6,421 bases of DNA. Origin: Nitrososphaerota archaeon. Its GTDB lineage: Archaea > Thermoproteota > Nitrososphaeria > Nitrososphaerales > JACPRH01. This document shows, one piece after another, positions 3,097-5,330 of the stretch. The notes under the pieces were generated by a model. The model searched no databases and was not told the origin of the DNA. It saw only the letters and a list, made by a program, of their open reading frames with translations. Each line of letters begins with the position of its first letter. Position 1 is the first letter of the stretch. The stretch is from positions 1-6,421 of the forward strand of contig JARPAQ010000093.1 of the NCBI GenBank assembly GCA_029460375.1, read 5' to 3'. The position numbers and the translations under genes are program-made.

Positions 3097-3110
3097 GTGA
3101 TAACAAGATG
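3097..3110 (+). promoter_or_regulatory. Ribosome-binding site and ATG start of EF-2
   Basis: GTGAT at 3097-3101 matches the core of the archaeal SD consensus GGAGGTGATC, six bases before the ATG at 3108-3110. The peptide encoded from that ATG, MPRYKSTTEVMKII, matches the N-terminus typical of archaeal EF-2, which fixes the start even though the frame is broken 23 codons later. Confidence 0.65.
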
Positions 3111-5330
3111 CCGCGCTACAAGTCCACAACAGAAGTTATGAAAATCATAGGCAAAAAAGACCAGATCAGGAAACTGTAGGACAACTCCGTCCGCAGCCTG
3201 TATTTCGGGGTCATTGCCCACGTAGATCACGGAAAGACCACTATGTCAGACTCTCTTCTGGCAGCGTGTGGTATGCTCTCCCCGTCAGTAGCGGGCCAAG
3301 CCTTAGCCCTAGACTACATGGATCTCGAGCAGACAAGGCAGATGACCATCAAAGCCGCCAACGTCACCCTCTACTATGAGACCAAGGGCAAGGGGTACGT
3401 TATGAACATGATAGACACGCCGGGCCACATAGACTTCACAGGCAGGGTGACACGAAGCCTCAGAGCCATAGATGGCGCGATCGTGGTCAGCGACTCTGTT
3501 GAAGGTATTATGACTCAGACAGAGACTGTCACTAGGCAGGCTCTGGAAGTACGTGTACGTCCAGTCCTTTTTATAAACAAGATTGATCGGTTGGTGAAAG
3601 AGCTGAGACTCACTCCAGATAAGATGCAGGAGTGGTTAGCTAACATCATCAGCGACTTCAACCGGCTGATATCCATCTATGCTGAGCCGGAGTATCGAGA
3701 GAAGTGGAAGGTGAATATACAGGACAGTAGCGTGGCTTTTGGTTCTGCTAAGGATAGGTGGGCTTTTACTTTCGACTTGGCTAAGGAGACCGGTGTCAAG
3801 TTTAGCGACATATATGACGCGTATGTTAATGATAAGGTTGATGAGCTGAGGGCGAAGATACCTTTACATGAAGCGGTATTGAGTATGGTGATAAAGCATC
3901 ACCCTCCGCCGCACGTAGCGCAGTCTTACCGAATACCGGTTATTTGGAAGGGTGACCTGAATTCGGATATTGGACAAGCTCTCTTGAAGTGTGATGATAA
4001 AGGGCCTGTAATTATGATGGTGACCAACATCGTCGTAGATCCTCAGGCCGGCGTAGTCGCTGTCGGTCGACTCTTCTCCGGAACCGTTGAAAGCGGTATC
4101 AGTCTTAGCCTCATATCTGAGAAGAGGCTTGGGCGAATCCAGTCTGTGAATATGTTTATGGGACCTTACCGTGAAATTGTGGATAAATTGTATGCTGGTA
4201 ATATCCCGGCGCTGCTTGGTCTGGAGTACGCTCGGGCTGGTGAGACTCTTTCCACGATCAAGAATATTCATCCTTTTGAGAGTATAAGATATGTTTCTGA
4301 GCCGGTTGTCACCATAGCTGTCGAGTCGAAGCATCCTCGTGAACTTCCTAAGCTCGTAGATACTTTGAGGAGGCTGAGCATAGAGGATCCGAATCTTGTG
4401 GTTAAGATAAACGAGGAGAGTGGAGAGATGCTAATGTCCGGTATGGGTGTTCTCCACCTCGAGATAGCGACTACTCTCTTGCAAGAGGACGGTCTTGAAA
4501 TCGTTACTTCTGAACCCCTTATCAACTACCGTGAGACTATTCAGGGGAAAGCTGGACCCATTATGGCGAAGTCGCCTAACAGACATAACAAGATATTCAT
4601 ACGTATCGAGCCGCTTACCCCTGAAGTTATTGAGCTGATACGGACAGGTAAGATAAACGAAAATATGGATAAGAAGGAGATGGCGAAGATTCTTAGGGAG
4701 CAAGGCTGGGATACTGACGAATCTAAGAATGTTGTCGCCATGGATGAGCGTGGAAACATGTTCGTAGATGCTACCAAAGGTGTCCAGTTCCTGCAGGAGT
4801 CTCTGGACTCTATGAGGGCAGGGTTCACCGACGTGATGATAAACGGCCCCTTAGCATACGAGTACTGCAGAGGCTTCAAGGTTATACTGCATCACTATGT
4901 ACCGCACGAAGACCCTGCGCACAGAACATACGCTCAGCTTATGCCTGCTACGAGAAGAGCGATACTGGGTGCTGCGCTATTGGCCAAACCTGTTCTGCTT
5001 GAACCTATATTGGGTATGGAGGTGAAGTGCACTTCGGAGCTGATAGGTGCGGTTGCGAGTGTGATTTCTTCGAAGAGGGGGAAGATGTTGAACGTGGATC
5101 AGAAGGGTATTCTTACGTTAATTGACGGGGAGGTGCCAGCCTCCGAGACCTTCGACCTGTCTGAAGTTATGAGAGGAGCGACTGCTGGAAAGGCTATCTG
5201 GAACACTCACTTCAAGTTATGGTCACCCGCCCCTCAGTCCCTTATGGCAGGTCTTGTGTCGGAGATAAGGAAGCGTAAGGGTCTAGAACCAGAACCGCCG
5301 AAGCCTCAAGAGTTCATAGATAAAGAGTAG
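3108..5330 (+). CDS. fusA: Translation elongation factor 2 (aEF-2), split by a 30-nt BHB intron
   Basis: aEF-2 is the ribosomal translocase GTPase. The coding sequence is join(3108-3172, 3203-5330), giving 730 residues, normal for the family. Unspliced, the frame hits TAG at 3177-3179. In mature numbering: P-loop AHVDHGKTT at 27-35; switch I with RQMTI (Thr70), the thaumarchaeal-type form of RGITI; G3 DTPGH at 93-97; G4 NKID at 147-150; then domain II, and domains III-V with the conserved SPNRHNKI and RGATAGKAIWNTHFKLW. The diphthamide histidine is His595 in DPAHRTYAQ, where the usual Gly after HR is Thr. The C-terminus EFIDKE and TAG stop match the family end. Starting instead at the first long-frame ATG (3243) would lose the P-loop and give a dead protein. 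Codon use and conservation are otherwise those of a functional single gene, not a pseudogene. Identification is certain; the splice is inferred from sequence. Confidence 0.95.
3173..3202 (+). other. Archaeal bulge-helix-bulge intron inside the EF-2 gene
   Basis: A BHB motif, the substrate of the tRNA splicing endonuclease, can be drawn here. The central helix is exon CAGG (3167-3170) with intron CCUG (3197-3200). The 3-nt bulges are AAA (3171-3173) and UAU (3201-3203). The intron hairpin pairs CUGU (3174-3177) with GCAG (3193-3196) and GGAC (3179-3182) with GUCC (3189-3192), with A3178 bulged and a 6-nt loop. The exon helix is weaker: A3165-U3205, G3164-C3206, then GACC (3159-3162) with GGUC (3209-3212) across a small internal loop and a U-U mismatch. 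Cutting after the second base of each bulge removes 30 nt, including the in-frame TAG, and ligation makes codon AAU (Asn22), restoring QIRNFGVIAHVDHGKTT. The cut from structure and the cut from protein homology agree to the base. Confidence 0.9.

Follow-up and report, generated by a model that had tools for sequence, protein, structure and literature searches.

The DNA examined here is a stretch of 6,421 nucleotides from a Nitrososphaerota archaeon (contig JARPAQ010000093.1; hereafter the window), and it carries a gene for elongation factor 2 (EF-2) whose reading frame is interrupted near its front end, shortly before the part that encodes the GTP-binding loop (P-loop). The whole window corresponds to contig C52 in a genome (G000) of 1.05 Mb, assembled in 192 contigs and 88% complete; G, L, f and P numbers are our own handles for genomes, loci, families and database proteins. 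The EF-2 frame opens with ATG at 3108, is stopped by TAG at 3177-3179, resumes in the same frame at 3203 and ends at 5330. At the break the sequence reads ...CAG ATC AGG AA, then A CTG TAG..., and exon 2 runs from 3203 with T, then TTC GGG. The list of open reading frames for the window gives only a 695-residue frame from 3243. Excising 3173-3202 leaves a single open frame for a 730-residue EF-2 that contains QIRNFGVIAHVDHGKTT, in which the codon formed at the junction is AAU (Asn22); the stretch of the predicted spliced protein that spans the junction is NFGVIAHVDHGK. The interruption is very probably a bulge-helix-bulge (BHB) intron in the EF-2 mRNA, predicted to be excised, likely by EndA, and likely sealed by RtcB. 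This assignment is based on the geometry of the RNA, on the fact that its removal mends the protein exactly, on the conserved position of the insert, on covariation and on a conserved in-frame stop. The features of the locus are as follows.

3108..3172, + strand: EF-2 exon 1, codons 1-21 followed by the AA of the Asn22 codon; an open frame in which PRYKSTTEVMKIIGKKDQIR resembles the front ends of relatives' uninterrupted EF-2
3173..3202, + strand: predicted 30-nt BHB intron; missing from uninterrupted relatives, of 3-4-3 form, and one of a set of 49 distinct introns that share this codon
3167..3170, + strand: 5' strand CAGG of the 4-bp central helix, exon side; pairs with 3197-3200
3171..3173, + strand: 5' bulge AAA with the predicted cut 3172/3173; from the sequence and the product codon AAU
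3174..3196, + strand: intron hairpin CUGU/GCAG plus GGAC/GUCC (CUGU 3174-3177, GGAC 3179-3182, GUCC 3189-3192, GCAG 3193-3196, read from the sequence); from the fold and from covariation, with two-sided changes in 6 of 12 pairs among five sequences of the CAGG type
3177..3179, + strand: intronic UAG stop in the exon 1 frame; such a stop is present in 49 of 49 introns at this codon
3197..3200, + strand: 3' strand CCUG of the central helix, intron side; pairs with 3167-3170, the helix having four of four pairs in 49 of 49 introns
3201..3203, + strand: 3' bulge UAU with the predicted cut 3202/3203; from the sequence and the product codon AAU
3203..5330, + strand: EF-2 exon 2, starting with the last base of the Asn22 codon and running to the stop; matches the GTP_EFTU and EF-G/EF-2 domains of Pfam; the database entry (P0001) has the 695 residues that begin at the internal Met 3243

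RNA geometry and protein repair

An initial annotation of this DNA had pointed to the TAG and the extra bases within the EF-2 frame and had drawn a BHB from CAGG/CCUG, the bulges AAA and UAU, and the hairpin strands CUGU/GCAG and GGAC/GUCC. Both the stop and every base of the drawn structure are in place. The window thus has what a BHB consists of, a 4-bp central helix between 3-nt bulges on opposite strands, and cutting after the second base of each bulge, as proposed then, gives AAU and the known mature sequence of a full-length EF-2. The claim that RNA structure and protein homology pick the same bases was also confirmed, as position, geometry and repair agree. When the 30 bases of the insert were shuffled (200,000 trials), the four central pairs formed in 1.3% of cases; requiring four or more contiguous inner pairs in addition brought the share down to 0.0135%, about 1 in 7,400. 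Rfam gave no match within the window.

Predicted introns at the same codon in related genes

We searched 61 genomes, including the window's own, and read the EF-2 locus at the DNA level in the 59 that had an EF-2-like match. Nineteen of these carry an insert at the Asn codon (site A), four at the Lys codon of the P-loop (site B) and one an apparent intein at that Lys codon; the other 35 are uninterrupted, a figure that includes G002, with a distant EF-2 copy only. The comparison with related loci, which the initial annotation had proposed as a check, therefore showed inserts of varied length and frame at one and the same codon, and uninterrupted relatives with QIRNFG or similar at the predicted junction. 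The uninterrupted genes are an independent template for the predicted splice. As a side observation, the EF-2 of G002, a genome of the window's family (L205, G002:C1), has 53% identity and a DPTHIRNIAICAHIDHGKTT front end, and is possibly a contaminant.

A covariance-model search, also proposed in the initial annotation, was run with two models, R1 built from 15 introns of the UUCG type and R2 from five of the CAGG type, and it uncovered further interrupted EF-2 genes. The span of a model match sorts the genes: 70 nt means no insert and 86 nt or more an insert. Spans were available for the best matches listed and filters drop weak ones, so the survey counts are lower bounds: among the matches listed, at least 19 were of long span in the window's order (400 genomes), to which G007 is added; at least 13 in the phylum outside that order (398 genomes); at least 18 in the class of G437 (256 genomes), some shared with the phylum survey; and, with R2, at least four more introns in the window's own class (400 genomes), in another order (family f91). 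Matches of odd span proved on reading the DNA to be uninterrupted EF-2 (G164, G438, G532, G625 with 98 nt, G792, G478 and G137) or another GTPase with no insert (G780 and G633). Two regular-expression matches, L056 and L058, were false and were dropped.

A script then accepted a locus as site A if joining gave an Asn codon preceded by Ile or Val and then Arg or Lys, with at least three central and at least two inner pairs. The Asn codon was thus a condition of the scan and the in-frame stop was not. It returned 49 distinct introns in 19 families (L096, which has an identical counterpart in G441, was counted as f37). They are 16-63 nt long, with 18, 21 and 10 having lengths of 0, 1 and 2 modulo three, and 31 of the 49 are therefore not multiples of three. 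All 49 have four of four central pairs, only three being required. Seventeen of the long-span matches in the class of G437 pass the script. L220 (G864) of that class fails it and was left out of the 49; by eye it has UACG/CGUG, bulges AGA and AAC and an in-frame UAG, and would read QLRAVGIIAH once joined. The shortest of the set is a 16-nt BHB intron with three inner pairs only, on the minus strand of G047 (L026:3584-3669).

Covariation of the helices

The initial annotation had also suggested looking for compensatory changes, and the helices do covary. In the UUCG-type alignment (15 introns) 91% of cells were paired, versus 26-47% for slid versions, and in the CAGG-type alignment (five introns) 98%, versus 27-40%; six pairs changed on both sides in each. 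In neither alignment did any of 500 shuffles pair as large a share of cells, or score as high for covariation, as the real sequences. The inner hairpins covary directly, whereas the central helix changes in step across types and not inside one type. Its 5' strand lies within exon codons (Ile-Arg) and its 3' strand within the intron, and the 49 introns fall into five types: UUCG/CGAA (22), UCCG/CGGA (18), CAGG/CCUG (5), UCCG/CGGG (3) and UUCG/CGAG (1). In the 40 phase-1 introns counted, the third base of the Ile or Val codon and its intron partner are C-G in 21 and U-A in 19, in a scan that demanded pairing but would have accepted U-G. The covariation of the central helix, as read from these sequences, rests on the comparison of types. 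The window's type, CAGG/CCUG, is set one base further, in phase 2 versus phase 1, with a changed Arg codon; the shift may reflect sliding or a new gain.

A conserved in-frame stop

All 49 site A introns contain a stop in the frame of exon 1 (UAG in 30, UAA in 10 and UGA in 9), and in 38 of them it is the third codon counting from the Asn codon. The other two frames have a stop in 9 and 20 of the 49. For the first 45 introns, shuffling predicts 18.6 with a stop in the exon 1 frame; shared descent inflates all such counts. Since all three stop codons are used, the pattern speaks for selection on a stop as such and not on one sequence. Together with the stops in seven of seven site B inserts (see below), it suggests selection against, or use of, translation of the unspliced RNA. 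This conserved stop appears to be new, at least to us.

Predicted splicing, its machinery and other explanations

According to the scenario that we propose, the transcript would fold so that the exon CAGG pairs with the intron CCUG, and EndA would cleave it at 3172/3173 and 3202/3203. Cleavage by EndA leaves a 2',3'-cyclic phosphate and a 5'-OH. RtcB would then join the exons, creating the AAU codon of Asn22, while the released 30-nt intron may become circular. A ribosome on the unspliced RNA would stop at the UAG after 23 residues; therefore, only the spliced RNA would give an EF-2 with its P-loop. RtcB is present in the window's genome. Among 17 genomes, matches to the EndA family numbered two in 13, one in three, including the window's genome, and none in G004. 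Both G001, of the window's family, and G005 have one EndA with the His of GIDHAPYLV and the Lys, which we take to be expected of the catalytic subunit, and a second without this His. This picture of EndA relies on L144, L288, L304, L286 and L298; some other frames, L282, L283, L285 and L293 among them, had been chosen wrongly and were set aside. The two types fit a heteromeric EndA, which, according to PMC7714728, occurs mainly in TACK archaea and has a broad range of BHB substrates.

Several observations weigh against the intron. In the window's genome, 88% complete, only the His-less EndA (L144) was seen and the catalytic type was not found. Folded alone, the 50-nt segment is no stabler than its shuffles (z -0.85; 29 of 200 shuffles did as well), and in its lowest-energy fold part of the 3' bulge is paired, so that the bulge there is 1 nt and not 3 nt; a 76-nt segment gave z -2.6, with four of 200 shuffles as good. 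As folding energy did not separate the 50-nt segment from shuffles, comparative evidence was used, and the decisive support is comparative and not thermodynamic. This evidence has its own limits. The two-sided pair count was reached by 11 of 500 shuffles in the UUCG alignment and the count of further types by 24 of 500; the shuffles of both alignments ignore relatedness; and within each training alignment none of the four central pairs changed on both sides. Many loci were found through models trained on such introns, and an earlier scan required four of four central pairs, so that the absence of mismatches in that scan is partly by construction. Finally, the central helix at site B is relaxed in four of the seven genomes, with two of four pairs in two of them and three of four in the other two.

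Other explanations of the interruption account for less. The ribosome might read through or hop over the insert with no RNA removed, by bypassing such as is reportedly found in T4 gene 60. Bypass sites are laid out in this way, with a stop just past the junction and a hairpin, and here the stop is conserved. However, plain readthrough cannot work, since the 31 inserts that are not multiples of three shift the frame. As to bypassing, the window's Asn, present in uninterrupted relatives, arises only by joining the two bulges, no matching take-off and landing codons were seen in the window (by eye, in the window only), and the exon-intron pairing changes in step, as a BHB needs. We therefore regard readthrough or bypassing as very improbable.

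Even less credit can be given to a broken or misassembled gene whose copy is silent. Such an origin would account for the in-frame stop, in a draft assembly of this many contigs, but 19 families share the break at this codon, with G005, a genome in one contig, among the carriers, and the residues past the break are 74-84% identical in 11 aligned relatives. These observations already contradict it. A second, intact gene, which the initial annotation had named as grounds for rejecting the intron, was not found in the window's 88%-complete genome; G005 likewise has one EF-2 match only, and it bears the insert. The interrupted gene is thus single-copy as far as these genomes show. Just as hard to credit is an EF-2 that begins at the internal Met 3243, the upstream part being a leader. 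Of the 120 best database proteins, 37, including the window's P0001, do start at MSDSLL. Yet the product would be without AHVDHGKTT, the conserved P-loop region encoded shortly upstream of this Met, and Pfam GTP_EFTU would then begin at profile position 20.

A second site, an intein and cbf5

The inserts at site B are 23-29 nt long and lie in the Lys codon of GKTT in seven genomes of three families: f6 (G009, public record JARVKA010000001.1, and G023), f14 (G017, G030, G067 and G077) and f10 (G129). Joining restores KTTMSDS or KTTTSDS, and an in-frame stop is present in all seven. The central pairs number four in L009, L012 and L250, three in L011 and L013, and two in L246 and L258. The last two loci (G077 and G067) could be relaxed EndA substrates or in decay. 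Two database proteins, P0043 and P0092, have an intein directly after the same Lys (GK/TT), of 540 residues in P0043. In G008 (L018) an open frame of 1355 holds an insert, seen at its end only, that closes with IIVHN ahead of TTMSD; it looks like an intein and is probably one. With BHB inserts and inteins at the same Lys, the EF-2 P-loop is struck by at least two kinds of insertion.

For comparison, cbf5 was searched in 16 genomes and had a match over the cut-off in 14 (none in G000 and G022). It is broken at GTL-D-P in four of four genomes of classes other than the window's, G437, G863, G413 and G406 (L265, L276, L277 and L278). Each break is explained by a 17-34-nt insert of 3-4-3 BHB form whose removal restores DP..TG, and three of the four contain an in-frame stop. 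In the search table, neither a stop nor a split is seen in the 10 cbf5 matches that come from the window's order, and the DNA of two of them was read.

Distribution and effect on database entries

A FastTree phylogeny of 134 EF-2 proteins was rooted at the midpoint, family f91 being left out. All 42 rows with a site A intron fall inside one supported group of 109 rows. This group holds the window's class together with Bathyarchaeota-like lineages, one of whose members is JAGTQN010000006.1 ('Candidatus Bathyarchaeota archaeon QZM_A2_bin_28'). In this group G405 stands beside records of Wolframiiraptor, Pelearchaeum and Calditenuaceae, these without the intron. A branch of 44 rows with the ammonia oxidisers has no site A intron, and the uninterrupted L222 and L225-L227 of the class of G437 branch outside the 109-row group. 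Nine changes suffice to explain site A on the tree, three of them forced by supported branches; many of the out-of-order loci were fetched for having the intron, so that these nine changes give no rate of loss. On the simplest reading, the site A intron would have been present early in the window's class and the Bathyarchaeota-like group and lost in the ammonia oxidisers and others. Repeated gain is a possible alternative, the sampling having favoured intron carriers.

A protein search with the spliced EF-2 gave 7281 matches, the best 120 of which were examined. Sixty-six have a complete front end, none of them above 79% identity, and 54 do not: the first residues are MSDSLL in 37 and MLSPS in 7, while 10 begin at other places, some carrying residues that read like intron. 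All those among the best 120 with at least 80% identity to the query are N-terminally truncated gene calls, and the window's own entry P0001 starts at Met 3243. The introns are the likely cause of such truncation, shown for the window's own entry only, and the EF-2 intron would explain database entries of EF-2 without the P-loop. Truncated entries of this kind could disturb EF-2 phylogenies and completeness checks.

Relation to known introns

The best-described counterparts are the introns of cbf5 pre-mRNA (cbf5 encodes the dyskerin homologue) in Desulfurococcales and Sulfolobales (PMC2738675). According to that paper, introns in other coding genes were predicted and not confirmed, and cbf5 is the one interrupted coding sequence named in the literature that we could draw on. 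Like the cbf5 introns described there, the EF-2 introns have a predicted cut between the second and third bulge bases, a pairing that is partly exonic, and gain or loss by lineage (PMC2738675). Unlike them, they occur in another gene and other lineages, and all 49 at site A are 3-4-3, whereas most cbf5 BHBs are called 'unconventional' (PMC2738675); the in-frame stop in 49 of 49 is a further difference, and splicing is supported by cDNA for cbf5 and predicted for EF-2. The putative 12-bp introns of an archaeal virus (Peng et al., cited in PMC2738675) are also small and lie in protein genes, with splicing again putative, but they are viral and of one size, whereas those of EF-2 are cellular, 16-63 nt long and spread over many families. 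With BHB introns of archaeal tRNA and rRNA the EF-2 introns share the 3-4-3 form and the presumed route through EndA and RtcB, but the host RNA is an mRNA and the position is set by a codon and not by the anticodon loop. The BHB sites of Haloferax HVO_1309 (PMC7714728) are EndA substrates in an mRNA, as is predicted for EF-2; they lie in the 5' untranslated leader, whereas the EF-2 intron is inside the coding sequence. Finally, the EF-2 intein (P0043 and P0092, probably G008) also interrupts the P-loop, one or two bases from the cut of site B, but is removed from the protein. The thaumarchaeal EF-2 is the commonest target of casposons according to PMC6563490.

Judged from the sequences, the EF-2 intron is of a known kind, predicted in a new gene and new lineages. 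Our searches of the open-licence literature brought up no EF-2 intron, an earlier report elsewhere being possible. Archaeal coding-sequence introns, described for one gene in two orders, would thereby extend to a second gene and to many families. EF-2 is essential and, as far as seen, single-copy; the intron would therefore have to be spliced for the cell to live, which would give EndA an essential job other than tRNA. Within one gene, EF-2 offers apparent losses and one-base slides and a second site, and the in-frame stop makes it directly testable whether prokaryotic introns protect or regulate translation. A bolder and rather doubtful extension would make the EF-2 intron an ancient, selected switch, the in-frame stop turning splicing into a gate for translation: early ribosomes terminating on the BHB would hold back or delay splicing, EF-2 would thereby feedback-control its own synthesis, and introns in coding sequences, far from being a peculiarity of cbf5, would form a widespread layer of regulation that gene callers conceal.

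The other genes of the window are two for ABC-transporter ATPases and one for a CbiQ-type membrane protein; its minus strand carries a SIS-domain gene and one for a glycosyltransferase. A tRNA check of the window's genome gave 13 loci; ARAGORN named a tRNA in nine of these and none in four.
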